Part shown: positions 8,491 to 50,930 of the stretch, in pieces | Layout of the letters: each line of letters opens with the position of its first letter | How positions within the stretch are numbered: the stretch's first letter is position 1 | NCBI GenBank assembly: GCA_030650525.1 | Contig: JAUSDQ010000043.1 | Span: forward strand, 1 to 50,930 | Source: Sulfuricaulis sp. | GTDB lineage: Bacteria; Pseudomonadota; Gammaproteobacteria; Acidiferrobacterales; Sulfurifustaceae | Length of the DNA stretch: 50,930 bases | Direction of reading: 5' to 3' | Notes under the pieces: model-generated | Seen by the model: the letters and a program-made list of their open reading frames with translations, nothing else | The model's database searches: none | Told to the model about the DNA's origin: nothing | Made by a program: the position numbers and the translations under genes

Positions 8491-8649
8491 GGGTTCGTTC
8501 GGTAATAAGTTGTGCATTTGGCCGTCGGATTCGGGATGCGATGCTAGGCGCAAAGCGTGCCGTGTGGCTCTGCCACACAAGCGATTTGCAACAACGCAGC
8601 GCACCCGAAGCTGGCGAGACAAATGTGCAAGTTATTGCTGAACAAGCCC
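8491..8649. mobile_element. 159-bp long imperfect palindrome, MITE-like
   Basis: Almost the whole gap between two convergent genes is one inverted repeat centred near 8570. The left end reads GGGTTCGTTCGGTAATAAGT and the complement of the right end reads GGGCTTGTTCAGCAATAACT. The centre is a perfect 7-base hairpin, GTGTGGC-TCT-GCCACAC (8562-8578). The element is flanked on both sides by TAA (8488-8490 and 8650-8652), which may be a 3-base target duplication of the kind made by some IS5-group elements. No transposase is encoded, so it would be a non-autonomous element. It could also act as a bidirectional terminator for the facing operons. The IS-family link is inference. Confidence 0.55.
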
Positions 8650-8652
8650 TAA

Positions 8653-9711: not shown

Positions 9712-9744
9712 GCTTACCTCGCTGTGGTCGGTACATATTCTCCT

Positions 9745-25506: not shown

Positions 25507-25531
25507 GGATATCTCCCCGTCAGGCTTGGTT

Positions 25532-26527
25532 TCAAATCGCCATGAGCTGCCGCGCGGCCTGCTCGATGTCGCTGGCCGACGGAATGCAATGCGCCTCCAG
25601 ACGCACCGTTTGCGGCTTGATCGTGTCCTTGCCGGCGACACGCGAAACCGGAGCTTCCAGATCGAAGAACACCTCCTCCTGGATTCTGGCGGCAATCTCC
25701 GCGCCGGGGCCGGCGGTGCGCACGGCTTCATGAACAACCATCGCCCGATGGGTCTTGCGAACCGAGGACATGATCGCTTCCCAATCGAGCGGTACGAGGG
25801 TGCGCAGATCAATGACCTCCAGCTCGATGCCTTCGGCAGCGAGGTGCGTTGCCGCATCCAGGCTGGGCTGCACCATGGAGCCGTAGGTCACAACCGTGAT
25901 TGATGTTCCGCTTCGGCGCACGGCAGCCTGTCCGAAGGGGATCAGGAATTCAGCTTGGGTCGGCACCGGACCGCGCGTGAACGCGAGCGCGCTGACGGGG
26001 TGAAACAGGACGGGATTGGGGTCGCGGATCGCCGTCTTCATGAGGCCCTTGGCATCGGCCGGCGTGGAAGGCATGACCACTTTCAGTCCGGGGAAGTGCA
26101 TGCCAAAGACTTCAAGGCTACTGGAGTGCTCCGGGCCTGCGCCTCCCGACGAACCGTAGGGAAGGATCACGACGGCGGACAAGACGAATTGGCCCCCGTG
26201 CATGTAGCGCCACTTCGCGAGCTTGTGGTAGATCTCATCGGCGGCGATGAGCGCGAAATCGCCGTACCGCATGTTGACGATGGGCTTCATCCCGGCGATT
26301 GCGGCGCCGACGGTGCAACCCGCCATGAATGCCTCGTTGATGTTGGTGTTGCGAACGCGCGCGTCACCGAACTCCTCGGCCAGGCCAAGCTCCGCCTTGA
26401 ACCGCCCCCCACCATTGACCATTTGACCCATGAGGAATACGTCCTTGTCCAAGCGCATTTCCTCGGCGATGGCGTGGAGCATCGCCGCGCCGTAAGTAAG
26501 AATCTTGGTTTCGCTGTCGGTGCTCAT
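25532..26527 (-). CDS. TPP-dependent dehydrogenase E1 beta subunit (set 1)
   Basis: E1beta of a 2-oxoacid or acetoin dehydrogenase complex, 331 aa. It shows the transketolase pyrimidine-binding start (LTYGAAMLHAIAEEMRLD), the conserved glutamate in NTNINEAFMAG that activates thiamine diphosphate, GPEHSSSLEVFGMHFPGLKV, and the C-terminal transketolase domain. It forms a heterotetramer with E1alpha. The ATG overlaps the E1alpha stop by four bases, so the two are translationally coupled. The pairing with a secondary alcohol dehydrogenase across the divergent region suggests an alpha-hydroxyketone or diketone substrate, but a branched 2-oxoacid is equally possible. Confidence 0.92.
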   Translation of the reverse strand: MSTDSETKILTYGAAMLHAIAEEMRLDKDVFLMGQMVNGGGRFKAELGLAEEFGDARVRNTNINEAFMAGCTVGAAIAGMKPIVNMRYGDFALIAADEIYHKLAKWRYMHGGQFVLSAVVILPYGSSGGAGPEHSSSLEVFGMHFPGLKVVMPSTPADAKGLMKTAIRDPNPVLFHPVSALAFTRGPVPTQAEFLIPFGQAAVRRSGTSITVVTYGSMVQPSLDAATHLAAEGIELEVIDLRTLVPLDWEAIMSSVRKTHRAMVVHEAVRTAGPGAEIAARIQEEVFFDLEAPVSRVAGKDTIKPQTVRLEAHCIPSASDIEQAARQLMAI

Positions 26528-27513
26528 GCGTAGACGTCCTTCCAGATGATGGAGAGATCAGCCACGGGAGCCGCGCAGGCCGCCTCATAGACTTGCTGAA
26601 TCTCCTGTTGAGCGCGCGCTTGCAGGCTTTGCGCGACCTTGTCGGGCAGATGCGAGCGCAGCAGTTCAACCGGGTCGCGGTAGCCGACGAGGTCGGGATC
26701 GTCAGGCCTTCGGTATTGCTGCGGATCGCCGTCGTAATGACCGCGAACGCGCACCACCTTGGCTTCGATCAATGTAGGACCCTTGCCCGCTCGCGCCCGA
26801 TCAACCGCTTCCTGCATCACCCGAAATACCGCGACGGCATCCTGACCGTCGACGATAACGCCCGGGATGCCATATCCGCGCGCGTAGTCGGCAATGTTCT
26901 CTGTCGGAGCCACTTCAGCCAAGCGCATTGAAACGATGAGGCCGTTGTTCTCGCAAAAATAGATGAGCGGCAGCTTCCAGGCCGCCGCCGAAACCATGGT
27001 CTCATGGAAGGTGCCGCGCGCCGACGCGCCATCACCGAAATCGGCGACGGCTACCTGCCCCGTGCCTCTCAGTTGCGCGGCCAATGCCGCGCCAGCCGCG
27101 ACCGGATAGACACTGCCCAAGGTTGCCCCGTCGCCCATGACACCGATGGCAGGATCGCACCAGTGCGGACTGCCCGCGCCCTTGCCGCCGGTGGCGCCGG
27201 TCACCCGGCCCAGGAGGTCGCCGAAGATTCCCGCCGGCGCCATTCCCTTTCCAATCGCCCAGCCGGCTCCGCGGCCCTGGTAGAAAACGTAGTCGTCCGG
27301 CCGCAGCGCCGCCGTCGCTCCTATCGAGGCGGCCTCCTGGCCTTCGCCCGAGTGCCAAAAGCCATCGAAGCGCTGTTCCTTGGTATGGCGCGCCATGATC
27401 GTGTCGAGGTGTCGCGCCAACGCCATCCGATAGAACATTGATTCGAGGAGCTCTTGTGTCAGCGCCGGCCCAGGCGCAGCGGCCGAATCGGTCTTCTTTG
27501 TTTGCTTCTTCAT
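26524..27513 (-). CDS. TPP-dependent dehydrogenase E1 alpha subunit (set 1)
   Basis: E1alpha, 329 aa from the ATG at 27513 with GGAAAGCATGAA; the ATG at 27555 has no better site. The TPP/Mg motif is complete: GDGASARGTFHE followed by FCENNG. Also seen are FWHSGEGQEAASIGA and RGHYDGDPQQYR. This pattern resembles acetoin dehydrogenase and pyruvate dehydrogenase E1alpha more than the branched-chain enzyme. It decarboxylates or cleaves the substrate and passes the acyl group to E2 lipoamide. First gene of the operon; its promoter lies in the divergent region shared with the zinc alcohol dehydrogenase. Confidence 0.92.
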   Translation of the reverse strand: MKKQTKKTDSAAAPGPALTQELLESMFYRMALARHLDTIMARHTKEQRFDGFWHSGEGQEAASIGATAALRPDDYVFYQGRGAGWAIGKGMAPAGIFGDLLGRVTGATGGKGAGSPHWCDPAIGVMGDGATLGSVYPVAAGAALAAQLRGTGQVAVADFGDGASARGTFHETMVSAAAWKLPLIYFCENNGLIVSMRLAEVAPTENIADYARGYGIPGVIVDGQDAVAVFRVMQEAVDRARAGKGPTLIEAKVVRVRGHYDGDPQQYRRPDDPDLVGYRDPVELLRSHLPDKVAQSLQARAQQEIQQVYEAACAAPVADLSIIWKDVYA

Positions 27514-27628
27514 TTCATGCTTTCCGATCTTGGTGACATAAAACCTCCCACCCATTCTTCAGTGTTGGGCGGCCTCGTCCCGCATGAATTCATTGCATGG
27601 CGGCCCCACGTGCCGGCTGTAACCGAAC

Positions 27629-31521: not shown

Positions 31522-31661
31522 TACAAGACGCTGTTGCGCGAGCCGCGAACACGAGATGCAGCGGATCGCATCCATCCGGGCCGGCAAGATCGGGAAGAGG
31601 CGGGCATCGGTTCGTCAAGACACACGGCCAGGCCATGCGCAATGTTCGAGAGGAGATTGAT

Positions 31662-33080
31662 GTGCGACCCGATGCGGTGGAGTTGAGAGTCGATGTGGTC
31701 ATCCTTGGTGGCGGGCCCGGGGGTTACGCCGCGGCGTTTCGAGCCGCGGATCTCGGCAAGCGGGTGGCGCTGGTGGACGCCAGCGGCAGCCTCGGCGGCG
31801 TCTGCCTGCACGTCGGCTGCATCCCCTCCAAGGCCCTGCTGCACACGGCCAAGGTGATCGTCGAGGCCGCCGAACTGCCAGGCGTGAAGTTCGCGCCGCC
31901 GCAGATCGACCTCAAGGCGGTACGCGACAGCAAGGGCATGGTGGTGACACGTCTGGCCGCCGGACTCAAGGGCCTGGCACGCCAGCGCGACGTCAGCGTG
32001 GTCCACGGGCGTGGGCGCTTTTCCTCCGCGCGCACGCTCGCCGTCGATGGCCCCGAGGGCGAGACAAGCATCCGTTTCGAACAAGCGATCATTGCCGCCG
32101 GCTCATCCCCGACACGCATCCCCGGCCTGCCCTACGACGACAAGCGGCTCATGGATTCCAGCGCGGCACTCGAACTGGCGGATATCCCGGCGCGACTGCT
32201 GGTCATCGGCGGCGGCGTCATCGGCCTCGAGATCGCGACCATCTACCAAGCCCTGGGTTCGCGCGTGACCATCGTCGAGATGGCCGATCAACTGCTGCCC
32301 GGCGTTGATTCGGACGTCGTCCAGCCCCTGGCCAAGCGCCTGGCCGGGCGTTGCGAGGCCATTCTGCTCAAAACAAGGGTGACCCAGATCGAGCCGCTGG
32401 CCGAGGGGCTCAGGGCGACGTTCGCCGGATCCGGGCTGACCTCGCCACAAACCTACGACCGGGTGCTGCTCGCCGTTGGCCGCACGCCCAACGGCAAGTC
32501 GATTGGCGCCGATGCTGCCGGGGTGGAGGTGGACGCCGATGGTTTCATCCCCGTCGATGAACAGCTGCGCAGCAATGTTGCGCACATCCACGCCGTCGGC
32601 GACATCGTCGGCCAGCCGATGCTCGCGCACAAGGCCAGCCAACAGGGCAAGGTGGCGGCGGAGGTAATCGCCGGTCACGCCGCCTCATTCGAACCCGGGG
32701 CCATTCCCTGCGTCGCCTACACCGATCCGGAGATCGCCTGGATGGGCCTGACCGAGCAGGAGGCGAAGCGAACCGGCGTTGCCTACGAAAAAGCCGTGTT
32801 CCCCTGGGCGGCAAGCGGCCGTGCCATGGCCTTGGGACGTAGCGAGGGGCTCACCAAGCTGCTCTTCGAGCCGGGCAGCCGAAGACTCATGGGCGCGGCC
32901 ATCGTCGGCGTCGGCGCCGGCGAACTGATCGCCGAGGCCGTGCTCGGGCTGGAGCTGGGCGCCTTGGCGGCCGACCTCTGCCTGGCCGTGCATCCGCATC
33001 CGAGCCTTTCTGAAACCGTGGCGATGGCAGCGGAGATCGCCGAGGGATCCATCACCGACCTTTACATGGGGCGCAAATGA
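31662..33080 (+). CDS. Dihydrolipoyl dehydrogenase E3
   Basis: An FAD-dependent disulfide oxidoreductase of 472 aa that re-oxidises lipoamide with NAD. I chose the GTG at 31662, which has AGGAG six bases upstream; the ATG at 31635 has none. Motifs in order: GGGPGGYAAAF (FAD), redox-active cysteines C48 and C53 in GGVCLHVGCIPSK, VIGGGVIGLEIA (NAD), HAVGDIV, and the C-terminal catalytic HPHPSLSE, where the usual HAHP has become HPHP. It leads the E3-E1alpha-E1beta-E2 operon and is the only E3 in the window, so it may serve both complexes. Confidence 0.93.
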   Translation: MRPDAVELRVDVVILGGGPGGYAAAFRAADLGKRVALVDASGSLGGVCLHVGCIPSKALLHTAKVIVEAAELPGVKFAPPQIDLKAVRDSKGMVVTRLAAGLKGLARQRDVSVVHGRGRFSSARTLAVDGPEGETSIRFEQAIIAAGSSPTRIPGLPYDDKRLMDSSAALELADIPARLLVIGGGVIGLEIATIYQALGSRVTIVEMADQLLPGVDSDVVQPLAKRLAGRCEAILLKTRVTQIEPLAEGLRATFAGSGLTSPQTYDRVLLAVGRTPNGKSIGADAAGVEVDADGFIPVDEQLRSNVAHIHAVGDIVGQPMLAHKASQQGKVAAEVIAGHAASFEPGAIPCVAYTDPEIAWMGLTEQEAKRTGVAYEKAVFPWAASGRAMALGRSEGLTKLLFEPGSRRLMGAAIVGVGAGELIAEAVLGLELGALAADLCLAVHPHPSLSETVAMAAEIAEGSITDLYMGRK

Positions 33081-34114
33081 AACAGAAAACTGCAAGCACA
33101 AAATCGAAGAACAGCCACCTGACCAGCGCCAGCCTGAGCGCCGAACAGAAGCTGCTGCTTTATCGCAACCTCACCCGGGCAATGACCCTGGACCGCTTGA
33201 TGGTGCGCCTGCTCCAGGCGGGCAGCCTGCTAGGCTTCTATCACGATTCGGGAATCTCCGCGGCCGCCGGGGTCGCGGCCGGATCGTTCCTGCGCCAGGA
33301 AGACATTATGTTCCCCCACTCGCGCGGGCACGGGATCGGCCACATGATCTCCAAGGGCATCAACGTCGCCAGTTACGTCGCCGAGCACATGGGGCGGGAG
33401 GCTGGCTGCTGCAAGGGGCGCTCAAGCTATCACTGGTCCTACCCGGATGATCACGTGCACGGCTTCTCGGGCAACGTCGGCGCGGGCTTCGGTCTTTCCG
33501 TCGGTTGGGGCCTGGCGGCGCGCAACAAGCGTTCCGGCCAGATCGTCATGAGCTGCTCGGGCGATGGTTCCTACGGCAATGGACGCAGCCATGAGGCCAT
33601 GTTGATGACCTCCATCTGGAAGCTTCCGGTGATCTTTTGGTGCGAGGCCAACGGCATGGTGCAGCACACGAACATTGATCAACTCTTTCCTGGTCCCGAC
33701 ATCTCGGCGCTGGCTGCCGGCTACGGCATGCCGTCGATGATCGTGGACGGCGAGGATCTCTTCGCCTGCGGCGAAGCGGCCCTTGCCGCGATTGCCCATA
33801 CGCGCGCCGGCAAGGGACCCTTTTTCGTCGAGTGCAAGACGCGTCGGGCGGGTGGCCACGCCGTGGGCCTGCCCAACCTCGAGGGCACGGCGCTGCGCGA
33901 CCAGGAATTGATGCAGGAATGGCGAGCCACTGGCGACCCCCTCAAGCGGGCCAGCGAACGGCTCATCGCGGAGGGCTTGCTCACCCTGGCCCAAGCGGAG
34001 CAGATCCAGGCGGATGCCGACAAGGAGGGGGCCGAGATGGTGGCTTTCAGCGAAGCGAGCCCCAGGGCGCTACCGAGCATTGAGGAACTTGAGGCGGCCG
34101 TGTATGCAGACTAA
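33077..34114 (+). CDS. TPP-dependent dehydrogenase E1 alpha subunit (set 2)
   Basis: E1alpha of 345 aa whose ATG overlaps the E3 stop by four bases. The TPP motif is CSGDGSYGNGRSHEA then WCEANG, with EAN in place of the usual ENN. It also shows PHSRGHGIGHMISKG and WSYPDDHVHGFSGNVGAGFG, where other family members have a GGxGGSMH stretch. It is clearly diverged from the set 1 E1alpha and is unlikely to act on exactly the same substrate. The C-terminal part is rich in acidic helices. It should pair with the E1beta encoded next. Confidence 0.9.
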   Translation: MKQKTASTKSKNSHLTSASLSAEQKLLLYRNLTRAMTLDRLMVRLLQAGSLLGFYHDSGISAAAGVAAGSFLRQEDIMFPHSRGHGIGHMISKGINVASYVAEHMGREAGCCKGRSSYHWSYPDDHVHGFSGNVGAGFGLSVGWGLAARNKRSGQIVMSCSGDGSYGNGRSHEAMLMTSIWKLPVIFWCEANGMVQHTNIDQLFPGPDISALAAGYGMPSMIVDGEDLFACGEAALAAIAHTRAGKGPFFVECKTRRAGGHAVGLPNLEGTALRDQELMQEWRATGDPLKRASERLIAEGLLTLAQAEQIQADADKEGAEMVAFSEASPRALPSIEELEAAVYAD

Positions 34115-34124
34115 AGGAACGACG

Positions 34125-35099
34125 ATGAGCGATGACAAACGCAGGATGAGCTTGTGGAAGGCAGTCCATGAGGCCTATGTCGAGGAGATGCGCCGCGACG
34201 AGCGGGTGATGATGCTCGGTGTTTCCGTGCGGGGTCCAACTTTTCCCCAGACCAAGGACCTGTTCGCCGAGTTCGGCCCGGAACGGGTGATCGATACGCC
34301 GATCGCCGAAGCCGCCATGGCTGGTGCGGCGATGGGGGCGGCGCAAGAGGGCATGCGCCCCATCGTCGATTTCATGTACGGTGGTTTTTCCTACTACGCC
34401 GCCTCGGAGATCCTGTTGCAGGCACCCCAGTACTACTTCCTGCACGGCAGCCAGAAGTCCCTGCCCATGGTCATGGTCAGCACATGTGGCCTGGGCAATC
34501 GCATCGCCAACGAGCATTCGACCCTGCTCTACGGCATGCTCATCCATCATCCCGGGATCAAGGTCTGCATGCCCTCCACCCCCTACGACGCCAAGGGCCT
34601 GATGAAGGCCGCCATCCGCGACAACAATCCGGTGTTCTTCCTCTGGCACACCGGCCTGATGGGCCTCAAGGGCCACGTGCCGGAGGAGGAGTACCTGGTG
34701 CCCCTGGGCTCGGCCGACGTCAAGCGCGAGGGCAGCGATGTCACCGTGCTCGCCTCCGGCATGCAGGTGCATACCGCGCTCAAGGTGGCTGAGAAACTCG
34801 CTGGCGAAATCAGCGTCGAGGTGGTGGACCCGCGCAGCTTCGAGCCCTTCGATCTGCCGACGCTTCTCAAGTCGCTGGAGAAGACCTCGCGCCTGGTCAT
34901 CGTTGACGAGGACTACGAGCGCGGCGGCTTTGCCGCGGAGGTCTGTGCCCAGGTGATGGAGCAGGGCTACGACCTGCTTGATGCCCCGGTCAAGCGGGTC
35001 TGCCATCCACATACCCCGATCCCCGGCGGCTACATGGAAGCGACCGTGATCCCCACGGTCGAACGGATCGAAGCGGCGATTCGCGAAGTCTGCCGCTAG
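34125..35099 (+). CDS. TPP-dependent dehydrogenase E1 beta subunit (set 2)
   Basis: E1beta of 324 aa from the ATG at 34125, preceded by AAAGGAACGACG. It has the pyrimidine-binding domain with the conserved glutamate in DTPIAEAAMAG, GGFSYYAASEILLQAPQ, CGLGNRIANEHS and then the transketolase C-terminal domain with EDYERGGFAAEV. The overall pattern is of acetoin/pyruvate dehydrogenase E1beta. It follows E1alpha by ten bases and precedes E2 by nine, so the complex is made from one transcript. Confidence 0.92.
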   Translation: MSDDKRRMSLWKAVHEAYVEEMRRDERVMMLGVSVRGPTFPQTKDLFAEFGPERVIDTPIAEAAMAGAAMGAAQEGMRPIVDFMYGGFSYYAASEILLQAPQYYFLHGSQKSLPMVMVSTCGLGNRIANEHSTLLYGMLIHHPGIKVCMPSTPYDAKGLMKAAIRDNNPVFFLWHTGLMGLKGHVPEEEYLVPLGSADVKREGSDVTVLASGMQVHTALKVAEKLAGEISVEVVDPRSFEPFDLPTLLKSLEKTSRLVIVDEDYERGGFAAEVCAQVMEQGYDLLDAPVKRVCHPHTPIPGGYMEATVIPTVERIEAAIREVCR

Positions 35100-35108
35100 G
35101 AGTAACTC

Positions 35109-36392
35109 ATGATCCGCAACGTTGTATTGCCCCAGCTTGGAATGGGAATGTCGAGTGGGACCATTGTCGAGTGGATGATCGCCGAGGGTGGGCGCGCAGT
35201 GCGCGACCAGCCGCTCGTGTCCGTTGAGACGGAGAAGGTGGTCACGGAGATTCCTTCGCTCCACGACGGCATCCTGCACATCGTCGCCGCGATCGGCACG
35301 ACGCTGCCGGTTGATGGCCTGATCGCCCAGTTCGCCGACACAGAGGAAGAATATCGCAGCCTTGGCGGGTCGGCGGGTTCCGCTCATCCGATGCAGGCCC
35401 CAACGAGCGCCGCGGCAGAGCCGCCTGCCGGGGTTGCGACGTCGAGCGCAAGTGGGCGCATCCGCGTATCGGGCCTCGCGCGCAAGATCGCGCGTGCCAG
35501 TGGCATTGACTTGACGCGAGTCAGCGGCAGCGGTCCGGGCGGACGCATCGTCAAGCGCGATCTTTCCCCCCTGTTGGCCGCGGCGGATATCCCGCTGGCG
35601 CCGCCGGTTCAGTTTGCGCCGAGGACCATCGTGCCCCAGATCGCGGCTGCACCCCGCAGCGCCACCGGCATTCGGGAACAAGCCCGCATCCCGGTCACCG
35701 GCATGCGCCGCACCATCGCGGAGAGGATGGCGAAATCCAGCGGCCTCGCGCCCCACACCTACCTGTTCTTCGAGATCGACGTCGGCAAACTCATTGCCGC
35801 GCGCAAGACCATGCTCGCGCGGGAGCAGGAGATAGGAACACGGATATCAATGACCGCGATCTACACGCGGGCGCTGGCGCTCGCCTGTCGCCAGGTGCCC
35901 ATCTGCAACGCGGCGCTGATCGACGACGAGATCATCGTCTGGGACGAGGTGAACGTCGGCGTCGCTGTGTCCCTGCCGGGCCGGGGTCCCTACGACTCGG
36001 GCCTGGTGGTGCCGGTGGTGCGCAACGCCGATACCAAGGGCCTCATCCAGATCGACCGGGATATTCGCGACCTCGTGGCGCGGGCGCGGGCGCGAACGCT
36101 GTCGGCCGCCGACATGGCCGATGCCACCGTCACCTTGTCCAGCGCCGAGCGCCTCAACGCGGGCGGATGGACGGTAGGCACGACGCTGCTGAACCTGCCC
36201 CAGGTGGTGAGCTTCAGCCCCGGTGCGGCGGTGCGCAAACCCGTGGTCGCGCCCGATGGCCAGATCGTCGCGGGCGACCTGATGCCGTGCAGCGTGAGTT
36301 TTGATCATCGGGCTCTGGACGGCGAGCCGGCGTCGCGGCTGGCGAAAAAGCTCACCGATCTGCTAAGCCACCCGGAACTGATGCTGCTGTGA
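35109..36392 (+). CDS. Dihydrolipoamide acyltransferase E2 (set 2)
   Basis: E2 core of 427 aa. Lipoyl domain at residues about 3-78 with K43 in VETEKVVTEI; an alanine/proline-rich linker; a peripheral-subunit-binding domain (RVSGLARKIARASGIDLTRV); and the catalytic domain ending in VSFDHRALDGEP. AGGAGTAACTC precedes the ATG. The acceptor CoA thioester depends on the E1 substrate and is unknown. The organisation E3-E1alpha-E1beta-E2 differs from set 1 (E1alpha-E1beta-E2), and the E2 sequences are diverged, so the two complexes were probably acquired separately, not by a local duplication. Confidence 0.92.
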   Translation: MIRNVVLPQLGMGMSSGTIVEWMIAEGGRAVRDQPLVSVETEKVVTEIPSLHDGILHIVAAIGTTLPVDGLIAQFADTEEEYRSLGGSAGSAHPMQAPTSAAAEPPAGVATSSASGRIRVSGLARKIARASGIDLTRVSGSGPGGRIVKRDLSPLLAAADIPLAPPVQFAPRTIVPQIAAAPRSATGIREQARIPVTGMRRTIAERMAKSSGLAPHTYLFFEIDVGKLIAARKTMLAREQEIGTRISMTAIYTRALALACRQVPICNAALIDDEIIVWDEVNVGVAVSLPGRGPYDSGLVVPVVRNADTKGLIQIDRDIRDLVARARARTLSAADMADATVTLSSAERLNAGGWTVGTTLLNLPQVVSFSPGAAVRKPVVAPDGQIVAGDLMPCSVSFDHRALDGEPASRLAKKLTDLLSHPELMLL

Positions 36393-40181: not shown

Positions 40182-41192
40182 ATGAATCAAGCCCTGCGCA
40201 ACCGTCAATGGATTTTCGCCCGACGCCCGGAAGGGCAGCTCGGCGTGGAGCACTTCGAAATGCGCGAGACCGCGAGCCCGGCGCCGGGTCCCGGGCAGGT
40301 GCTGGTACGCGTGCGCGCCGCGTCGATAGATCCCGCCCAGCGCGCATGGATACTCACCGAGACCTACCGTGCACGACTGGAGCCGGGCGAAATGATGCCG
40401 TCGTTCGGCCTGGCCGAGGTGGTGGAGTCGAATACGCCGGGACTCAAGCCGGGCGACATCGTCGAGGGCAACTTCGGCTGGCAGGACTATGCCGTTGCCA
40501 ATCCACGGCACGTCATGCGCAGGGACGCGACGCAAGCACTCGAGCACCTGATCCATCTGTTGGGCATCACCGGGCTGACCGCCTATTTCGGCCTGCTCGA
40601 AGTCGGACGCCCACGCCCGGGCGAGACCGTCCTCGTGTCCGCTGCCGGCGGCGCCGTCGGTACCCTCGCCGCGCAGATCGCAAAGATCGGCGGCTGCCGC
40701 GTGGTCGGCGTCGCCGGTGGCGCGGAGAAGTGCCGCTGGTTGACCGAGGAACTGGGTCTCGACGCCGCCGTCGACTACAAGGCCGGCGGCCTGCGCGAGG
40801 CCATGAAAGCCGCCTGCCCGCAGGGCATCGACGTGTATTTCGACAACACCGCCGGTGAGATTCTCGACAGCGCCCTGTCGCTGATGAATCAGCACGGCCG
40901 GGTGGTGTGCTGCGGCTATGTTTCGCAGTACGATCACGCTGAACCGGGCGGGGGCGGGCCGCTGGGCGTGCCGGGGACGTTAATCGCCAAACGCATCCGC
41001 ATGGAAGGTTTCCTCGCCCTCGACTTCGACAAGAACCGCAAGTCGGCCGAGGCCGCCTTGGCGAATTGGGTGAAGACGGGTGCCTTGAAGGCGCCCGTTC
41101 ACGTGGTCAACGGCCTCGAAAACGCGCCCCAGGCATTGATCGATCTACTCGCCGGCCGCAACCTCGGAAAAATGATGGTGCGCGTGAGTTGA
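40182..41192 (+). CDS. NADPH-dependent MDR reductase, CurA/prostaglandin-reductase-like
   Basis: A zinc-free reductase of 336 aa from the ATG at 40182 (GGAACAGCC). It has SIDPAQRAWI in place of the usual LDPYMRGRM, LGITGLTAYFGL, VSAAGGAVGTLAAQ for NADPH binding, and VYFDNTAGEILD. It is a paralogue of the protein at 36875-37879 but diverged, with an inserted glycine-rich stretch (PGGGGPLG) before the last third. It likely reduces an enone or enoyl-CoA-type double bond. It is between the CoA-transferase and a kinase gene in the same direction. Confidence 0.9.
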   Translation: MNQALRNRQWIFARRPEGQLGVEHFEMRETASPAPGPGQVLVRVRAASIDPAQRAWILTETYRARLEPGEMMPSFGLAEVVESNTPGLKPGDIVEGNFGWQDYAVANPRHVMRRDATQALEHLIHLLGITGLTAYFGLLEVGRPRPGETVLVSAAGGAVGTLAAQIAKIGGCRVVGVAGGAEKCRWLTEELGLDAAVDYKAGGLREAMKAACPQGIDVYFDNTAGEILDSALSLMNQHGRVVCCGYVSQYDHAEPGGGGPLGVPGTLIAKRIRMEGFLALDFDKNRKSAEAALANWVKTGALKAPVHVVNGLENAPQALIDLLAGRNLGKMMVRVS

Positions 41193-41215
41193 ATAGCTAC
41201 AACAAGAACGAATCC

Positions 41216-42295
41216 ATGCATACCCCATCAGCAACAAAACTCCCCCTTGAATTCCAGGACATCAGTTGCGCCTGGCTGAGCGAGGCGCTCGCGCAACGCT
41301 ATCCAGGCGTGGAGGTCACCGCGTTCGAGCGTGACGGCGAGATGCACTCAACGTCGAGCAAGGCACGCTTGCGCCTCACCTACAACGAGGCCGGCCAGCG
41401 CGCGGGCCTGCCTGCCTCGATGTACATCAAGGGCGGATTCAATCGGCGCGTCCTCAAGCGGGTGTGGGGCGCGCTGGCGATTGAAGTCCGCTTCTTCATG
41501 GAAGTCGCTCCGGAACTGAACGTCAACATCCCGCGCTGCTATTTCGCGCAGATCGACGAGCAGAGCCGACAGGGCATCGTGCTGCTCGAAGACCTCACCG
41601 CGAGGGGCGTGAGCTTCGGCGTGCTCACCGAGCCGCTGACACCGGACCGGGTCGCGACCATGCTCGAACTCATGGCGCGGTATCACGGCCATTGGTGGAA
41701 CGATCCGCGACTGTCGCGCTACGCGGACTTCAAGGTGCCGATGCACCTCTACATGAAGTGGCAGTTGCGGCGCGACTGGTGGGAGCGGATGCTGGAGATG
41801 CCCCAGGCCGCGCACCTGCCCGCCGAGCTGCGCGATGCGGACCTGATGGAGCGAGCGGTCGATACCCTGTGGGAGCTGAACGAGCGCATGCCGCAGACCT
41901 ATGTGCACGGCGACCCGCACCTCGGCAATACCTATTTCGAAAAGGATCTCAGCCCGGGCCTGCTCGACTGGCAATGCAGCATGCGCGGCCCCTGGGCCCA
42001 CGACGTCAGCTATTTCATCGCGGGGGTGCTCGACGTGGAAGACCGGCGCAGCCACGAGCGGGACTTGCTCAAGCATTACCTGGCGGCACTGCGCGCCGCC
42101 GGTGGCGAGCCGCCGGACTTCGACAGCGCCTGGCTCGAGCACCGGCGCCAGATGATGCACGGTCTGCCGATGTTTACACCGACGGATCCAAACCAGGGCC
42201 CGGAGGCTTGGACGGTCGCGGCCTCTCACCGCTTCCAGATCGCGGCGGCGGATCTGGACGTGCTGGAGAGCCTTGGCCTCAAGCGGTCGCGATGA
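41216..42295 (+). CDS. Phosphotransferase-family kinase (aminoglycoside-phosphotransferase/EcKinase-like)
   Basis: A kinase-fold protein of 359 aa, ATG at 41216; the longer frame from 41066 lies inside the reductase gene. The catalytic loop is YVHGDPHLGNTYF, with proline in place of the more usual phenylalanine, and the metal-binding motif is GLLDWQCSM. GIVLLEDLTARG is the hinge segment. The downstream helix VEDRRSHERDLLKHYL closely resembles the same region of the kinase at 15812-16900, indicating a shared subfamily. A hydroxyacyl-CoA or sterol-like kinase is inferred; antibiotic resistance is unlikely in this setting. Confidence 0.82.
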   Translation: MHTPSATKLPLEFQDISCAWLSEALAQRYPGVEVTAFERDGEMHSTSSKARLRLTYNEAGQRAGLPASMYIKGGFNRRVLKRVWGALAIEVRFFMEVAPELNVNIPRCYFAQIDEQSRQGIVLLEDLTARGVSFGVLTEPLTPDRVATMLELMARYHGHWWNDPRLSRYADFKVPMHLYMKWQLRRDWWERMLEMPQAAHLPAELRDADLMERAVDTLWELNERMPQTYVHGDPHLGNTYFEKDLSPGLLDWQCSMRGPWAHDVSYFIAGVLDVEDRRSHERDLLKHYLAALRAAGGEPPDFDSAWLEHRRQMMHGLPMFTPTDPNQGPEAWTVAASHRFQIAAADLDVLESLGLKRSR

Positions 42296-43848: not shown

Positions 43849-46014
43849 CTACAGCCGCCGCAGCCGAACCCCAATCCCGGTCATCCAGGCCATGGCGCTG
43901 ATGGACTCCACCCTGGAGTCGCTGATGAGTTGGTTGATCGCCGTCTCTGCCTCGGCTTCGTCGCCCGGTAGCCCGCCCCAGCAGTGGCTCACGGCGACCA
44001 CACCGGGCTTTTGCCGTTCGTCCGGGGCCGCGTGGGCGACGACTCGTCCATGCTCGTTGGCAATCTCCAGCCTGTCCCCGGCTGCGAGTCCCAGTGCCGC
44101 CATGTCGTCGGGGTGCAGCCAGGCCGGATTGGAGGGATTGCGCTTGCGTATGGAGTCGAGTTCCCGCAGGGTGCTGTTCATCACATCGCGCATTCTCCTC
44201 ACCGCCAGCCGGTAGCCATAGCCTGGCGGATCGCAATACCCCAGGCAGGCGGTCAATTCCGACGCCACATCGTCCGGCATGACCGCGAACCTTGCCGATG
44301 CTTCAGGCCGGGCCGGCTCGACCACCGCCGAGGCAATGTCAAACACCTTGCCGCTCGGATATTTCCTGATTTCCGTGAGGGGCACCTTGGCCTTCTTGGT
44401 CAGCAGTGCGAGCAGTTGTTCAGCTGTCGGCGGCGTGACCATGTCGAGTTCGGCTCCGGCAAGGGTAAGCGTCTTTCCCAAGCGCCTTGCCAGCTCCCAC
44501 AGGGCGCGCCATTCGTCCACCACCTCCGAACCCGCAGGAGGCGCCACCACCGCATCCGTGTACTGCGAAAAAGGCTTTGGCAGATAGCCCGGGTAGCTGA
44601 GGGCAGGCAGTATGTCGGGGCGCTCATACTGCAGCGTTGGCGGCAGGATGTAGTGCGCCAGGCGAGCCGTTTCGCTCATGACCGGATCGAAGGACAGCAG
44701 CAGGTCCAGCGAGGAAAGGGCTTGTACCGCCTTGGCTTGGTCTGGCAGGGCCACCGCCGGATTGCCGCCAGGGACGATGAGCGCGCGAATCTGTCCTTGG
44801 CCCGGTACAAGAATCTCATCGGACAGGGTGCCGGTCAGCTTTTCCCCGAACAGCCGGCCCCATCCCTTCACGCGGCTATGCGGACCTTGTTCCCAGGTGC
44901 GCTGTGGTGGTGCCACCTCGGCGCGAAAGGTTTTATGCGGAATCAGTATGCCGGGATTGTCGATCTGCTCGCCCGCGCGCAGGAAGCGTCCGCAAACCAC
45001 GCCCAAGGTCTGGTAAAGATGCTCCGCCAGATTCGAATAAGGCCCCATGTTGGCGCCGGTGCCGGTTGACAGGCTGCCGCGTCGGGATTGCCTGGCGAAG
45101 AGTTCGGCGGCGGCAAGCAGATCTTCTGCCTTGATTCCGGCGCGCTGGGCCACATACTCCGGCGTGAAGGCCAGCACCGCGGCCCTCAGGGCATCCAGGC
45201 CCTGCACGTAACGGTCGCAAAATTCCCGGTCTTCCCAGCCCATGCCAAGAACGATGTGCAACAGGCCGGCAGCCACGGCCGCATCCTCGCCCGGCCGGAT
45301 CTGGAGATGGATATCGGCGTAATGGGTAAGCTCCGAGCGGCGCGGGTCGATGACGATGACCTTCATGCCCCGCTCCCTGGCTTGGCGCATCCGGTTGACC
45401 GGATGGTTCGCGTAGAACCCGCCGCCGCCCTGGTGCGACACCAGGGGGTTGTGGCCGGCAAAGAGCCAGACATCTGATTGCGAAATGGAACGCTTGCCGG
45501 CGCGCCAGTAGCCCAGGCGCGCCGCGGCCACCCACTTTGCCGGCTGATCGATGGTCACGGTCGAGAACAGGGAATCCGAACCGATGGCCTTCAGCCAGGC
45601 ATCCACGAAGGCATAGGAGATCGCGTTGACGTAATTCGGCGTACCCCGGTAGATGGCCACCGCCTGCGCTCCATGCGCGGCGATGACGATCTGAAGTTTC
45701 TCGGCAATCTCATCAAGGGCCTGGCGCAGGGGAATACGCTCGAAGCTACCGTCCGGGCGACGCTTCAAGGGATGCAGCAGCCGGGCCGGGCCGTTGTGCG
45801 TCTCCACCGCCCGCAAGCCCTTGAAGCAGGCATAACCTTCTGTCAGCGGATGCTCCTTGTCCCCTTTGATCTGGGCCAGCCGACCTTGCTCGTCGATGCC
45901 CAGGCGCACGCCGCAAAACCCGCCGCACGTGCGGCAAAAAGACACACCTTCGCGTTGGACCATGACATCTCCAGCGTCCATGATGATCGTCTTCTTGCCC
46001 GTCAATCGCTTCAT
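43849..46014 (-). CDS. Molybdopterin oxidoreductase (DMSO reductase superfamily)
   Basis: A molybdenum/tungsten bis-MGD enzyme of 721 aa from the ATG at 46014 (GAGGATAAGACC). An N-terminal [4Fe-4S] site is formed by C27, C30, C34 and C63 (FCRTCGGFC ... YACFKG). The cofactor domains follow: LFAGHNPLVSHQGG, VIDPRRSEL, STGTGANMG, and the C-terminal MopC-like cap (PSNPAWLHPDDMAALGL). There is no Tat signal, so it is cytoplasmic. Where the protein ligand to the metal would lie, I read tryptophan (W161, PAKWVA). The first 17 residues copy the start of an SDR, so an internal ATG at 45963 (GGAGATGTC) may be the ancestral start. Substrate unknown; its partner may be the adjacent MDR reductase. Confidence 0.88.
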   Translation of the reverse strand: MKRLTGKKTIIMDAGDVMVQREGVSFCRTCGGFCGVRLGIDEQGRLAQIKGDKEHPLTEGYACFKGLRAVETHNGPARLLHPLKRRPDGSFERIPLRQALDEIAEKLQIVIAAHGAQAVAIYRGTPNYVNAISYAFVDAWLKAIGSDSLFSTVTIDQPAKWVAAARLGYWRAGKRSISQSDVWLFAGHNPLVSHQGGGGFYANHPVNRMRQARERGMKVIVIDPRRSELTHYADIHLQIRPGEDAAVAAGLLHIVLGMGWEDREFCDRYVQGLDALRAAVLAFTPEYVAQRAGIKAEDLLAAAELFARQSRRGSLSTGTGANMGPYSNLAEHLYQTLGVVCGRFLRAGEQIDNPGILIPHKTFRAEVAPPQRTWEQGPHSRVKGWGRLFGEKLTGTLSDEILVPGQGQIRALIVPGGNPAVALPDQAKAVQALSSLDLLLSFDPVMSETARLAHYILPPTLQYERPDILPALSYPGYLPKPFSQYTDAVVAPPAGSEVVDEWRALWELARRLGKTLTLAGAELDMVTPPTAEQLLALLTKKAKVPLTEIRKYPSGKVFDIASAVVEPARPEASARFAVMPDDVASELTACLGYCDPPGYGYRLAVRRMRDVMNSTLRELDSIRKRNPSNPAWLHPDDMAALGLAAGDRLEIANEHGRVVAHAAPDERQKPGVVAVSHCWGGLPGDEAEAETAINQLISDSRVESISAMAWMTGIGVRLRRL

Positions 46015-46218
46015 GGTCTTATCCTCAGTCGTTGAATGGATGAATCCCGTCGCCGCTGCAAGTGGCTGTTCAAGCGCTTCGCGCAGGGTCATCTCAACGG
46101 ACGATTTCCGGCCAACCGCCGGAGCTGGGTTGAGCTGTCGCGTCGAACATCCAACTCGACCGATCGCAGTTCGCCCTGGCGCTCAAACAGTCAGCTAGAT
46201 GCTGAGGCAGATCTTGCC
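45994..46218 (-). repeat. Dispersed duplication B: MDR 3' end, intergenic region, SDR-type start
   Basis: Second copy of the junction at 21708-21955. Here the MDR tail (GKICLSI) belongs to the complete gene 46195-47223, the 181-base intergenic part is retained with conserved element B (46086-46105), and the SDR-type start MKRLTGKKTI is joined to a molybdopterin oxidoreductase. The copies differ by scattered substitutions and small indels. Confidence 0.75.
46086..46105 (-). promoter_or_regulatory. Conserved upstream element, copy B
   Basis: The complement reads ATCGTCCGTTGAGATGACCC, 72-91 bases upstream of the ATG at 46014. It differs from copy A at a single base. The two lie in the same duplicated block, so their match is not independent evidence of function; copies C and D are. 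Confidence 0.42.
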
Positions 46219-47223
46219 GAAGTGTCGTCCCGATTCCTGGTAACGGAAGGCGGCGGCGATGTCATCGAGCGGGAAACTGCGATCAATCACCGGACGCAGG
46301 TCGCGCGCTTCGATGGCCCGCACCATGTCAAGCTGCTGGGTGCGGCTTCCCACCGTCACCCCCTGCAGGCGGATCTGATGGGCCATCAAACGCACCGTGG
46401 AGACATTGCCCGCCATGCCGGTGAGCACGCCGATGAGCGCGATGTGGCCGCCCATGCGGCAGGCCGTGATCGACTGCGCCAGCGTCTCCGGACCACCCAC
46501 CTCCACCACGTGATCAACGCCCCGGCCACCTGTCCACTCCTTCGCGGCCGATCCCCACTTGGGCTGCGTCTTGTAGTTGATGACGTGATCGGCACCGAGC
46601 TTCTTCAGTCGTTCGAGCTTTTCGTCGGACGAGGAGGTTGCGATCACGCTCGCCCCGGCCGCCTTGGCGAACTGCAGCGCGAAGATCGACACGCCACCCG
46701 TGCCCTGAACCAAGACGACATCGCCCGGCTTGATCGGTCCGTCAGCCACCAGGGCGCGCCAGGCCGTGAGACCGGCGCAAGGCAGGGTCGCGGCCTCCTC
46801 GTGCGAATAGCCGCGCGGCGCGCGGGTGAAGCAGGAGGCCGGCATGCTCACATATTCGCTGGCGAAACCATCAATGTGCTCGCCGTGGACGCGGCTGGCC
46901 TTTTCCGGCGTCAGCTCGCCATCGGCCCAGTCGCGAAAGAAGGTGCCCATGACATGGTCGCCGACCTTGAAGTCAGCCGAGGCAACGGGCTGCCCGTCGC
47001 TTCGCGGCGGTCCGATTTCGACCACCTCCCCCGCGCCGTCGGACATCGGAATGCGGCCAGCGGCCACCGGAAGTTGACCCTTCGCCACAACGTAATCATG
47101 GTAATTGAGCGAACTGGCACGCACCCTCACCAGTATTTCTCCCACCCCCGGAACGGGCCGCTCGGCGGCGCTCACGGTCAATTGGTCCAAGCCTGCCGGT
47201 TGTCCTACTCGAATTGCTTTCAA
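46195..47223 (-). CDS. Zinc-free MDR oxidoreductase
   Basis: A medium-chain reductase of 342 aa from a TTG start (47223) with AGGAG six bases before it. It has VRASSLNYHDYVV near the N-terminus, LPCAGLTAWRAL, the NAD(P)-binding VQGTGGVSIFALQFA and HVVEVGGPETLAQS. It lacks the catalytic-zinc ligands, as in the NAD(P)-dependent quinone-reductase-like and YogA-type groups. It lies next to one molybdopterin oxidoreductase and downstream of the MDR-molybdoenzyme fusion, so MDR and molybdoenzyme modules occur side by side twice. The gene end is duplicated at 21.93 kb. Substrate unknown; an enone or aldehyde is plausible. Confidence 0.88.
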   Translation of the reverse strand: MKAIRVGQPAGLDQLTVSAAERPVPGVGEILVRVRASSLNYHDYVVAKGQLPVAAGRIPMSDGAGEVVEIGPPRSDGQPVASADFKVGDHVMGTFFRDWADGELTPEKASRVHGEHIDGFASEYVSMPASCFTRAPRGYSHEEAATLPCAGLTAWRALVADGPIKPGDVVLVQGTGGVSIFALQFAKAAGASVIATSSSDEKLERLKKLGADHVINYKTQPKWGSAAKEWTGGRGVDHVVEVGGPETLAQSITACRMGGHIALIGVLTGMAGNVSTVRLMAHQIRLQGVTVGSRTQQLDMVRAIEARDLRPVIDRSFPLDDIAAAFRYQESGRHFGKICLSI

Positions 47224-47265: not shown

Positions 47266-47322
47266 TCACAAGCCGCACCCGCCACCGGTGACCGCGGCAA
47301 GCTTGCCCGTCAGACTAAAGAC
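47266..47322 (-). pseudogene. SDR N-terminal remnant
   Basis: The complement encodes VFSLTGKLAAVTGGGCGL and then a stop. This is the cofactor-binding start of an SDR and matches the first codons of the SDR at 37889-38653 (MFSLTGKVAVITGGGRGL) in DNA and protein. Nothing of the rest of an SDR follows. The fragment overlaps the last codons of the MDR-molybdoenzyme fusion in another frame and supplies its TAG stop. It marks an old recombination junction. Confidence 0.7.
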
Positions 47323-50300
47323 GGCTGGCCAAGGCCGTGACGGTGACGGGAATGCCATCCAGCAGGGGCGCGCCGGAAACGGCTTCGATGTCCTGCGGAT
47401 TCGCGGAAGCAATGGCGTTGATATTGATGCCTTCGGTTCGGTTGGCGTGGCTCCAGCCCCCCGCATGACCCCAGCCGTGCGGGTAGCAGACCGAGCCGGC
47501 GATGACCGTATCGCTCACTTGCACCGGACAGCGCACGCTGCGTCCGTAGGCCGACACCGTGACCAGCGCTCCCGTGGCCAGACCGCGCGATGCGGCGTCC
47601 GCCGGATGCATCAACAGCGCCGGGCGCTGGGGCTTTGTCAGCGACTCGACATTGTGAAACCAGCTGTTCAGCGAGCGAATGTCGCGGCGACCGAACAAGC
47701 GCAATTGGCCCACTCCCACTGGCACCCCCTGGGCATGCAGACGCTCGAACTCGCCGGCAATGAGTTCGCTCCAGAGATGCAGCTTGCCGTCCTCATGCTG
47801 GACCTGCTCGCGCCAGCGCGAGAAGTCCAGCCGGCCCCCCAACAAGACCCCGTGCGGGTGTTGCGCTTCGAGCTTGTCGAGAGAGTAACCCTCGGGTCGG
47901 GCACCACCGCCATCACCGACCTCCCCCGCCCGCAACAGACTGTCCAGGGCCTCGCGCTGGCTCAGGTCGGCGTTCTCTTGCCACTGGCGCGACGGCAGCA
48001 GGCCCACCGCCACCGGATTGGGCAAACCCAGGCGCTGCGCGAGTTCCCGCAAGACCGACTCCTCGGTCCGCGCCTCGCCCTGGCTCTGCAGCACGCGGTC
48101 GGCGAATTGCAGGGCCGGTCGGGCCATCAGCGGCGCCGAGAACACGGCCATGTCCTCGCGCTCGAAGAAGGTCGTCGCCGGCAGCACATAGTCGGCGTAC
48201 TTGTTGGTTTCGTTGATATACAGATCCATGCTCACGTGCAGATCCAGGGTCTGCAAGGCCGCTTCCAGCTTGTCACCCTCGGGGTAGCTGCGGGCCGGAT
48301 TGCCCGCGACGACGATCAGGGCGCGTATCGGGTGCTCGGACACGTGGCTGATGTCGTCGGCGAGCACGGTGGCGGGCATGGTCCCGGCAATGCTGGGGAA
48401 GCCGCCGCTGCGGCTGCGCGCGCGCGCGTAGGTGGGACGCTTGCGCCGCGGGCTTGCGCCGGCCGGCGCATAGGGATCGAAACCGAAACCCCAGCCGCCG
48501 GGCTGCCCCAGGCGGCCAGCGACGATGTTGAGGGCCTCGACCAGCACATTGGTGAGCGTGCCGAAACTGGCGCGGCAGATGCCGATCCGGCTGTAACAGA
48601 CGGCCCTCGGCGCGGCCAGACGCCTGGCCAGTCCCCGTATCGTCGGCGCGTCGACGCCGCAGAACTGGGCGCATTGCTCGACAGTGAAACTGCCGCACGC
48701 GACGCTGAGGATTTCCAAACCCTTGACGTGCTGGTGCAAGAAGTCCTGGTCGGCGAGTTGTTCGTCAAACAGCACGCGCAACATGCCGATCAGCAGATAG
48801 ACGTCGGTGTTGGGCAGGATGGGCACATGCTCGTAGCGCGCGGCGGTCTTGGTCTTGCGCGGATCAATCACCACCACCCGGCCGCGGGCGGCGATCGCGT
48901 CCATGTCATCTCGGATCCGCGGCGAGGTCAGCAAGGAGCCGTGGGACTCCAGCGGATTGGCGGCGATAACCAGGAGAAAATCGCAGTTGGGCAGATCGGG
49001 GATCGGCAGCACCGGCTGGCCATAGACCGCTTCGGTCGCCACCCAACGCTGCGAGGTATCGGCCGCCGCGGGCGTGTAATACAGGCTGGACCCCAGGGTC
49101 TTAAGCAGTCCGGCCGCGATGTGATTGGTGAACGTGGCGGCCGCCGCCGGGTTGCCCACGTACATGGCGATGGCCTCGCCGCCCTGGGCCTGGCGAATCG
49201 CGCCCAGGCGCTGGGCAATGTCGCCCAGGGCCTCGTCCCAACTCACGCGCTTGAATTCTCCCGGTGCGCCGCTGCGCTTGAGCGGATGGAGCACCCGATC
49301 TGGATCGTGCGTGATGGCCGCCATCCCAGGCCCCTTGGGACACAGGAATCCCCGGGACACCACGTTGTCCTTGTCGGGCATCACCTTGGTGATGCGGCCG
49401 TTCTTGACGGTGGCGACAAGGCCGCAATAGGCGTCGCAGAGACGGCAGTGTGTGATGTGGTCTCCGTCTTCGCCGGGCGCCAGCTTGCGCGCGTTGGTCG
49501 TCGTTTCCTTCTCAAGTGGTGCCACGACGGCGGGCACTGCTTGGTCTGAACAGGTCAATACCACTTTCCCCTGCACCTCGCCGCGCGCGATCGCGGTCAG
49601 CATCCGCGCGGCCTGCGCCAGCGGCGCCGTGCGCGACACCTGCGGATGCAACTTGCCCTGGGCGTACCAGCGCAACAAGTCCTCGAAATTGGCCTGGTGC
49701 AGCTTGGGCTCGTTCCTCTGGAAGCCGCCAGCCAGCACGCCGATGGTGGAAATACCCTTGAGCAGCAGCAGGTTCGCCGGCAGCGCGGGAATGCGTCCGC
49801 TGGCAAAACCCACCACCAGGTGCCGGCCGTTCCAGGCCAGGGTGCGCGCGGCCGCGTCGAAGAAATCGCCACCAACCGGGTCATACACCACGTCCACCCC
49901 GCGGCCACCGGTGAGTTCCATGACGCGCGACTTGAGCGATTCCTCACGGTAGTTGATGGTCTCGCTGGCCCCCGCCTGTCGCGCCCGCTCCAGTTTCTCG
50001 GTACTGCTGGCGGCGGCGATCACCCGCGCGCCCATCAGGGCGCCAAGTTCGACGGCGGTGAGTCCGACGCCACTGCCCGCGGCGAGCACCAGCAAGGTCT
50101 CGCCGGCGACGAGATGGGCCTTCTGGCGCAGTCCATAGAGAGAGGTCGAATAAGCAATGCCGAATCCGGCGGCGGTGACGAAGTCCATGCTCGCCGGCAG
50201 GTGAAACACCTGTCCGCTGACGTTGAGCGCCATGTAGTCGGCGTAGGCGTTCCAACCCTGCATCGCCAACACGCGATCGCCCACGGCAAAACCGGACACG

Positions 50301-50524
50301 CCGGCGCCCACTTCGACGACCACGCCGGCGGCTTCGCTGCCCGGTACAAAAGGCAGGGCTGGCCGGTCCTGGTATTTGCCTTCGATGATCAGGGTGTCGA
50401 GAAAATTCACGCCCGCCGCGGCGACTTTGATCAGGACTTGCCCGGCGCCCGCGACCGGCATCGGAAACTCCTCGTGGCTCAGAGATTCCGGCGGCCCGTA
50501 GGCCTTGCACACCACTGCTTTCAT
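47315..50524 (-). CDS. Fusion protein: quinone-oxidoreductase-type MDR joined to molybdopterin oxidoreductase
   Basis: One open frame of 1069 aa from the ATG at 50524 (GGAGAAGCGAAGC); an ATG five codons upstream lacks a ribosome site. Residues 1-325 are a complete NADPH:quinone oxidoreductase-like MDR (PFVPGSEAAGVV, VLAAGSGVGLTAVELG, YDPVGGDFFD, GKVVLT). A linker of about 30 residues follows. From about 355 comes a complete DMSO-reductase-superfamily enzyme with a [4Fe-4S] site (C360, C363, C367, C395), AANPLESHG, VVIDPRKTKT and the C-terminal cap with GWGHAGGWSHAN. The usual metal-ligand position appears to be W494 (SQRWVAT). The fusion suggests electron or substrate channelling between NAD(P)H chemistry and a Mo/W site. 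Cytoplasmic; no Tat signal. Confidence 0.9.
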   Translation of the reverse strand: MKAVVCKAYGPPESLSHEEFPMPVAGAGQVLIKVAAAGVNFLDTLIIEGKYQDRPALPFVPGSEAAGVVVEVGAGVSGFAVGDRVLAMQGWNAYADYMALNVSGQVFHLPASMDFVTAAGFGIAYSTSLYGLRQKAHLVAGETLLVLAAGSGVGLTAVELGALMGARVIAAASSTEKLERARQAGASETINYREESLKSRVMELTGGRGVDVVYDPVGGDFFDAAARTLAWNGRHLVVGFASGRIPALPANLLLLKGISTIGVLAGGFQRNEPKLHQANFEDLLRWYAQGKLHPQVSRTAPLAQAARMLTAIARGEVQGKVVLTCSDQAVPAVVAPLEKETTTNARKLAPGEDGDHITHCRLCDAYCGLVATVKNGRITKVMPDKDNVVSRGFLCPKGPGMAAITHDPDRVLHPLKRSGAPGEFKRVSWDEALGDIAQRLGAIRQAQGGEAIAMYVGNPAAAATFTNHIAAGLLKTLGSSLYYTPAAADTSQRWVATEAVYGQPVLPIPDLPNCDFLLVIAANPLESHGSLLTSPRIRDDMDAIAARGRVVVIDPRKTKTAARYEHVPILPNTDVYLLIGMLRVLFDEQLADQDFLHQHVKGLEILSVACGSFTVEQCAQFCGVDAPTIRGLARRLAAPRAVCYSRIGICRASFGTLTNVLVEALNIVAGRLGQPGGWGFGFDPYAPAGASPRRKRPTYARARSRSGGFPSIAGTMPATVLADDISHVSEHPIRALIVVAGNPARSYPEGDKLEAALQTLDLHVSMDLYINETNKYADYVLPATTFFEREDMAVFSAPLMARPALQFADRVLQSQGEARTEESVLRELAQRLGLPNPVAVGLLPSRQWQENADLSQREALDSLLRAGEVGDGGGARPEGYSLDKLEAQHPHGVLLGGRLDFSRWREQVQHEDGKLHLWSELIAGEFERLHAQGVPVGVGQLRLFGRRDIRSLNSWFHNVESLTKPQRPALLMHPADAASRGLATGALVTVSAYGRSVRCPVQVSDTVIAGSVCYPHGWGHAGGWSHANRTEGININAIASANPQDIEAVSGAPLLDGIPVTVTALASRL

Positions 50525-50587
50525 GCTTCGCTTCTCCATGGTTATCTAGAAATTTCGGCCTCTTGAGCGCATCGTGGCGTTCATGGC

Positions 50588-50930
50588 CTAGCCGCTTGCA
50601 TCGGCCTTGCCGGCCGCCTGATAGGCCTCGCGCAATTCACGCTTCAACACCTTGCCAACATCGCTGCGCGGCAGACTGTCAACAATCTCCACGGCCGCGA
50701 GGCGTTGCACTTTGCCCAGCTTGCCATTGGCCCAGGCGAGCAGGGCCTGGGCCGCCGTCGCGGCGCCGGGCCGCAAGACGACAAAGGCCAGCGGCGTTTC
50801 GCCCCAGCGCTGCGACGGCACGCCCACCACGGCAACGTCGGCCACCTCGGCATGTTCGCTCAGCACGGCCTCCAGATCGCTGGGATAGATATTGAAGCCG
50901 CCCGAGATGATCATGTCCTTCTTTCGGTCG
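50588..50930 (-). CDS. Acyl-CoA synthetase (AMP-dependent ligase), C-terminal part, cut by the right edge
   Basis: The last 113 or so residues of an adenylate-forming ligase; the frame stays open to the window end, so the start lies beyond it. The hinge DRKKDMIISGGFNIYPSDLE and the C-terminal catalytic lysine in SDVGKVLKREL are both intact, unlike the ligase at 16965-18569. It would activate a carboxylic acid to its CoA thioester. It is upstream of the fusion gene in the same direction, with only 63 bases between them, so they are probably co-transcribed. Confidence 0.9.
   Translation of the reverse strand, partial: DRKKDMIISGGFNIYPSDLEAVLSEHAEVADVAVVGVPSQRWGETPLAFVVLRPGAATAAQALLAWANGKLGKVQRLAAVEIVDSLPRSDVGKVLKRELREAYQAAGKADASG

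Follow-up and report, generated by a model that had tools for sequence, protein, structure and literature searches.

Known MDR enzymes exchange hydride with NAD(P)H on one side and a carbon substrate on the other; they contain no flavin and do not split hydride into single electrons. To our knowledge they have no way of passing electrons singly to a [4Fe-4S] cluster, and we know of no characterised enzyme in which an MDR domain and a molybdenum/tungsten (Mo/W) domain share an architecture. No MDR-Mo fusion was found in the open-access literature. Among the Mo/W enzymes, an aspartate metal ligand characterises the class II hydroxylases, such as ethylbenzene dehydrogenase (EBDH) and steroid C-25 dehydrogenase (S25DH). 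Both are three-subunit enzymes with additional Fe-S and heme subunits (PMC6016249, PMC8840923), and S25DH, which carries a Tat sequence, has been proposed to be periplasmic (PMC6016249). The gut catechol dehydroxylases, members of the DMSO-reductase family, use bis-MGD in substrate breakdown, and some of them lack a signal peptide and are thought to be cytoplasmic; the parts of that account drawn on here make no mention of an MDR fusion (PMC12771579).

The window, meaning the whole stretch of 50,930 nucleotides that was analysed, contains a gene in which both kinds of domain are joined (Table 1). Positions 47315-50539 of the minus strand form a single uninterrupted frame of 1074 aa, counted from the ATG at 50539, and Pfam placed ADH_N at residues 31-94, ADH_zinc_N at 157-277, Molybdop_Fe4S4 at 363-409, Molybdopterin at 415-835 and Molydop_binding at 946-1049, all five above their gathering cut-offs. 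The ATG at 50524 (residue 6) is the likelier start because it is preceded, 9 nt upstream, by a GGAG (-6.4 kcal/mol to the anti-SD), which is absent before the in-frame upstream ATG at 50539 (+0.1 kcal/mol). The first-pass annotation had described a single-chain fusion of two complete modules starting at 50524, beside the same two module types as separate genes; the Pfam domains are intact in one open frame, the start matches the better-supported ATG, and the separate genes do adjoin the fusion on the same strand. Pfam detected no flavin domain in the fusion chain, and what precedes the Mo part is the MDR domain rather than an export signal. A 753-aa open reading frame opposite the fusion gene (plus strand, 47288-49549) appears to be an antisense shadow in high-GC DNA.

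Table 1 Features of the fusion locus, in positions of the window
Feature	Position	Strand	Details and evidence
AMP-binding acyl-CoA ligase, C-terminal part	50588..50929	-	Just upstream of the fusion; cut at the contig end
MDR-Mo fusion gene	47315..50524	-	Open frame; Pfam domains; GGAG before ATG 50524; second fused copy
MDR domain, PIG3/QOR-like	49541..50524	-	Residues 6-333; nucleotide-binding motif AAGSGVGL; Pfam, NCBIfam, likeness to standalone MDR
Translated former spacer	49502..49540	-	Residues about 334-346; ends and starts of homologues; fastest-changing part
Probable relic ribosome-binding site	49506..49513	-	GAGAAGGA; duplex energy -5.7 kcal/mol
Probable relic Mo-gene start codon	49499..49501	-	ACG (Thr347) in the window, ATG (Met347) in C211
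Mo/W domain, bis-MGD predicted	47315..49498	-	Residues 348-1074; Cys365/368/372/400, Lys402, Asp494; Pfam, conservation, model
Asp494 codon, predicted metal ligand	49058..49060	-	Aligned with the PsrA Cys of 2vpw; Asp in 98/98
Separate MDR gene	46195..47223	-	TTG start behind AGGAG; Pfam
Separate Mo-type gene	43849..46014	-	Paralogue, distantly related to the Mo half of the fusion; Pfam; ORF 43849-46092, probable start 46014

The Mo part belongs by its domains and fold to the DMSO-reductase (MopB) superfamily, with 128.3 bits for Molybdopterin and 54.3 bits for Molydop_binding against cut-offs of 24 and 26.8, and is predicted to bind Mo or W through bis-MGD. The AlphaFold model of the domain (pLDDT 88.7, pTM 0.91) gave acetylene hydratase (2e7z) and PsrA (2vpw) as the best Foldseek matches, with E of 1e-42 and TM of 0.78-0.80. 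The three Pfam domains, the [4Fe-4S] cysteines and the fold are shared with the soluble single-cluster members acetylene hydratase and FdhH (1aa6) and with the PsrA catalytic subunit, to which the fused domain is about 19-24% identical. It differs from this group in the ligand position, where Asp is predicted in place of Cys or Sec, and at the N-terminus, where the MopB comparison enzymes have a signal peptide or ferredoxin-like domain. All of the curated NCBIfam subfamily models listed (Fdh-alpha, NapA, PhsA, TorA and others) scored far below their cut-offs, the top subfamily score being 212 bits against the 666 needed for Fdh-alpha.

Cys365, Cys368, Cys372 and Cys400, assigned to the [4Fe-4S] cluster, are invariant across 98 sequences, as are Lys402 and Asp494. 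Asp494 aligns with a cysteine of the polysulfide reductase PsrA that we take to be the metal ligand in 2vpw, and from this alignment and its invariance it is the predicted metal ligand of the fusion; in alignments with formate dehydrogenase and with DMSO reductase the ligand falls a few positions off. An aspartate at this position would liken the fused domain to EBDH and S25DH, with oxygen-free hydroxylation as a possible reaction, but neither the beta and gamma partner subunits nor the Tat export of those enzymes was found, the neighbours being an MDR gene, a Mo gene and a ligase, and no electron-transfer partner subunit gene was present among the fusion neighbours examined. The gut catechol dehydroxylases are comparable in their use of bis-MGD for substrate breakdown and, for some of them, in a presumed cytoplasmic location.

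The MDR half is a full-length domain with the same Pfam pair as the PIG3/QOR NADPH:quinone (enone) oxidoreductases (4eye, 4dup, 1yb5, 1qor). ADH_N and ADH_zinc_N scored 64.9 and 97.5 bits against cut-offs of 23.5 and 31.8, which places it in the MDR superfamily, the best PDB match among the PIG3/QOR-type relatives had an E of 1e-55, and a standalone bacterial MDR of 325 aa was 59% identical. TIGR02824 (PIG3) was the best NCBIfam match (E=5e-67), at 226.2 bits below its curated cut-off of 296.8, and this shortfall, together with the attached Mo/W domain, sets the fusion apart from the PIG3/QOR enzymes. By its nucleotide-binding motif the domain is predicted to be an NAD(P)H-dependent reductase. 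In the full-length AlphaFold model, built with alignment rows for the Mo part only, the MDR half mostly had pLDDT below 50 and is uninformative on domain contacts.

The genes on the minus strand follow one another as ligase, fusion, separate MDR and separate Mo-type gene, spaced by about 60, 90 and 180 nt. The two separate proteins are not recent copies of the fusion, because they are only about 34% (MDR) and 31% (Mo-type) identical to its respective halves. The separate Mo-type protein had a best match of 30% in 299 sampled genomes and forms a very long tree branch. The rest of the window is devoted to acyl-CoA catabolism (SDRs, enoyl-CoA hydratases, acyl-CoA dehydrogenases, CoA-transferases, EcKL/APH kinases and solute-binding proteins), a gene set that bears out the catabolic setting proposed earlier. 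The three EcKL/APH-type kinase genes lie at 8653-9711, 15812-16900 and 41066-42295, and two distinct groups of 2-oxoacid dehydrogenase genes (E1 alpha, E1 beta, E2) are located at 24121-27555 and 31635-36392, the second with an additional E3-like gene.

Acyl-CoA gene sets resembling that of the window surround close unfused Mo relatives in Solimonas (L060), Sphingopyxis (L061) and, in part, Novosphingobium (L078), and comprise CoA ligase, enoyl-CoA hydratase, acyl-CoA dehydrogenase, SDR, CoA-transferase and EcKL/APH kinase genes; kinases of the last type are found beside the Mo gene in L060 and L078. In L078 a single kinase gene separates Mo and MDR in a Mo-kinase-MDR run, and at locus L091 an unfused MDR gene (7740-8768) is followed by a Mo gene (8895-11045) in the same frame with two stops between them. 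The locus of the sister protein (L059) has neither an adjacent MDR nor acyl-CoA genes, only a TonB receptor and transporters. MDR genes were near 8 of 80 Mo loci (the best 80 of 577 relatives), and general pairing of MDR and Mo genes is weak because this is not clearly above chance.

Relatives of the Mo part were collected with an alignment-based scan of an 85,000-species collection, from which the best 80 of 577 were taken; a first contig scan with the full protein alone had found no relative. The closest among these 80 were from a Spongiibacteraceae MAG (51%), a Novosphingobium MAG (48%) and Solimonas terrae (47%), followed by a Sphingopyxis MAG (44-46%), Actinomadura and mycobacteria. The two fused copies, from the window and from contig C211, group together in the tree (support 100) with the unfused Spongiibacteraceae protein as sister (99), inside a seven-member clade (99) whose other members are unfused, and the fusion thus arose within an established Mo family. 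That family is widespread (Pseudomonadota, Actinomycetota and others), soluble and Asp-bearing, and apparently uncharacterised. The Sphingopyxis MAG (genome G802) has at least four unfused Mo gene copies, 45-47% identical to the fusion, and two diverged Mo genes of the family occur in tandem in Mycobacterium sp. Root135 (L067 7941-12485) and Williamsia muralis (L083 6939-12501).

No fusion was found among the best 80 of the 577 Mo relatives, and when the fusion was compared with relatives, with the order, class and phylum (about 800 genomes in all) and with 72,556 plasmids, only the two copies matched over both halves. Three apparent fusions were rejected: the N-terminal parts of those in L050 (1,063 aa) and L083 (1,084 aa) are antisense or non-coding-frame shadows, and the apparent open frame 1102 spanning MDR and Mo in L091 is interrupted by the two stops mentioned above.

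The second fused copy lies on contig C211 of the same bin (L028:15944-18247) and covers residues 1-768 before the contig ends. It is 92.5% identical to the window fusion and joined in the same frame, the nucleotide identity to the final 2.7 kb of the window is 92.8%, and a whole acyl-CoA ligase gene lies upstream in the same order as at the window edge. There are no indels across 2,304 coding nt, and substitutions at codon positions 1, 2 and 3 number 33, 27 and 112. Since two diverged copies share the join, neither a frameshift nor an overlooked stop in a single assembly, which the first-pass annotation had considered as ways of joining two genes, can account for it, and a genuine fusion, one frame with two intact domains, is confirmed. 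Both domains are under purifying selection, with dN/dS of 0.15 in the MDR part and 0.13 in the Mo part; the linker (residues 330-360) is the fastest-changing part, at about 0.5.

The reading preferred here, with a rough probability of 0.45, is a soluble two-domain catabolic enzyme that was born by loss of the stop between an MDR gene and a Mo gene just behind it and that carries out successive steps on one compound. The protein would be cytoplasmic and both of its domains active, probably on a cyclic or branched substrate activated by a CoA or ketone group. The Mo/W site, ligated by Asp and served by a single [4Fe-4S] cluster, may perform oxygen-free hydroxylation, hydration or reductive removal and exchange electrons with a separate carrier, and the MDR domain, acting independently with NADPH, would reduce an activated C=C bond (or form one). 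Joining would fix the ratio of the domains and keep the intermediate close, with no wiring from NADPH to the metal. We favour a single chain that catalyses two catabolic steps in succession, with moderate confidence and with function read from the neighbours, because of the acyl-CoA surroundings of the window and of close relatives and because of the MDR-Mo neighbours. The two diverged same-frame copies, the purifying selection, the presence of all site residues and the recurrent unfused MDR-Mo pairs argue for this; the bare surroundings of the sister protein and the low count of MDR genes near Mo loci argue against it. A steroid or terpenoid substrate, as proposed earlier, is suggested by the kinds of neighbouring genes, which take it no further. 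Gene fusion is a pointer to enzymes that work jointly, and here it connects the Asp-bearing Mo/W family with an NADPH reductase and with acyl-CoA catabolism, thereby providing a handle on the role of the family.

It is less likely that the fusion is genuine yet without functional consequence, in that neighbours joined by the loss of a stop still work independently in a single tolerated chain. Its great rarity, the fast linker and the generally weak MDR-Mo neighbourhood would fit such an accident, but both domains have remained under strong purifying selection after fusion, the linker is free of indels, the separate start seems to have decayed differently in each copy as if no longer needed, and adjacent unfused MDR-Mo pairs occur. 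Rather improbable, but of interest as an architecture with no known characterised example if true, is a channelled bifunctional enzyme, whose Mo/W site would introduce or remove an oxygen group in an inert carbon framework and whose MDR domain would reduce or trap the labile product before it leaves.

The first-pass annotation held up on the fusion, the separate modules and the catabolic setting, but not in its suggestion that the MDR domain supplies or removes electrons for the Mo/W site. Such a redox machine, passing NADPH hydride through the MDR domain as electrons to the [4Fe-4S] cluster and Mo/W site, or the reverse, would suit a single chain that has one Fe-S cluster and whose examined neighbours include no gene for an electron-transfer partner subunit. 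Direct flow is nevertheless unlikely because Pfam showed no flavin domain in the protein and MDR enzymes pass hydride to carbon, and the reading as a whole has little probability.

For the preferred two-step enzyme, the linker suggests how the join was made. Standalone MDR homologues stop near residue 330-333 of the fusion and unfused Mo relatives begin near 347, and the N-termini of the Mo proteins of Novosphingobium L078 (MSLKAQLSPGGDGEHISFC) and Sphingopyxis L061 (MTETPATRLQPGEDGMHVTFC) align at fusion T347-TNARKLAPGEDGDHITHC. Ahead of residue 347 the window has a ribosome-site-like AGAAGGA (-5.7 kcal/mol to the anti-SD), yet ACG and not ATG; C211 has the ATG, but the energy of its site, -2.7 kcal/mol, is close to the random mean. 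Random sites had a mean duplex energy of -2.9 kcal/mol, a 20th percentile of -5.1 and a 5th percentile of -7.2, which puts the AGAAGGA inside the best 20% and outside the best 5%, and it is probably a relic ribosome site rather than a chance match. Codon 339 is GTG in the window and ATG in C211, and the sites there (-1.1 and -1.7 kcal/mol in the two copies) are no better than the random mean. Read from two sequences, the window and C211, the fusion probably originated when MDR and Mo genes about 40 nt apart lost the intervening stop, after which a different half of the old Mo start signal would have decayed in each copy. The gene fusion has thus seemingly been caught at a readable stage.

Continued production of two proteins, whether translation starts internally around residue 339 or 347 or the chain is processed, seems very unlikely. 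The AGAAGGA of the window, the ATG codons at 347 and 339 in C211 and the GTG at 339 in the window could serve it, but neither copy pairs a good ribosome site with a start codon at one place, and the spacer frame is open in both. A normal ribosome site and start in the linker had been named earlier as grounds for independent proteins; the linker shows the apparent remains of such a start, but neither copy retains both elements.

The window (C128) and C211 come from a draft bin (G000) of 354 contigs that is 94% complete with 5.8% contamination, and tetranucleotide profiles split its sampled contigs into two groups, with the window, C211, C95, C268 and C272 together. That the join is an artefact of assembly or sequencing is scarcely credible even in a bin of this kind, given a second contig, 7.5% diverged, with the same join, no indel and a codon-like pattern of substitution. 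The window may have another host than the remaining contigs, or the contig group may be an island or plasmid, and the two fused copies may represent either two strains or two paralogues.
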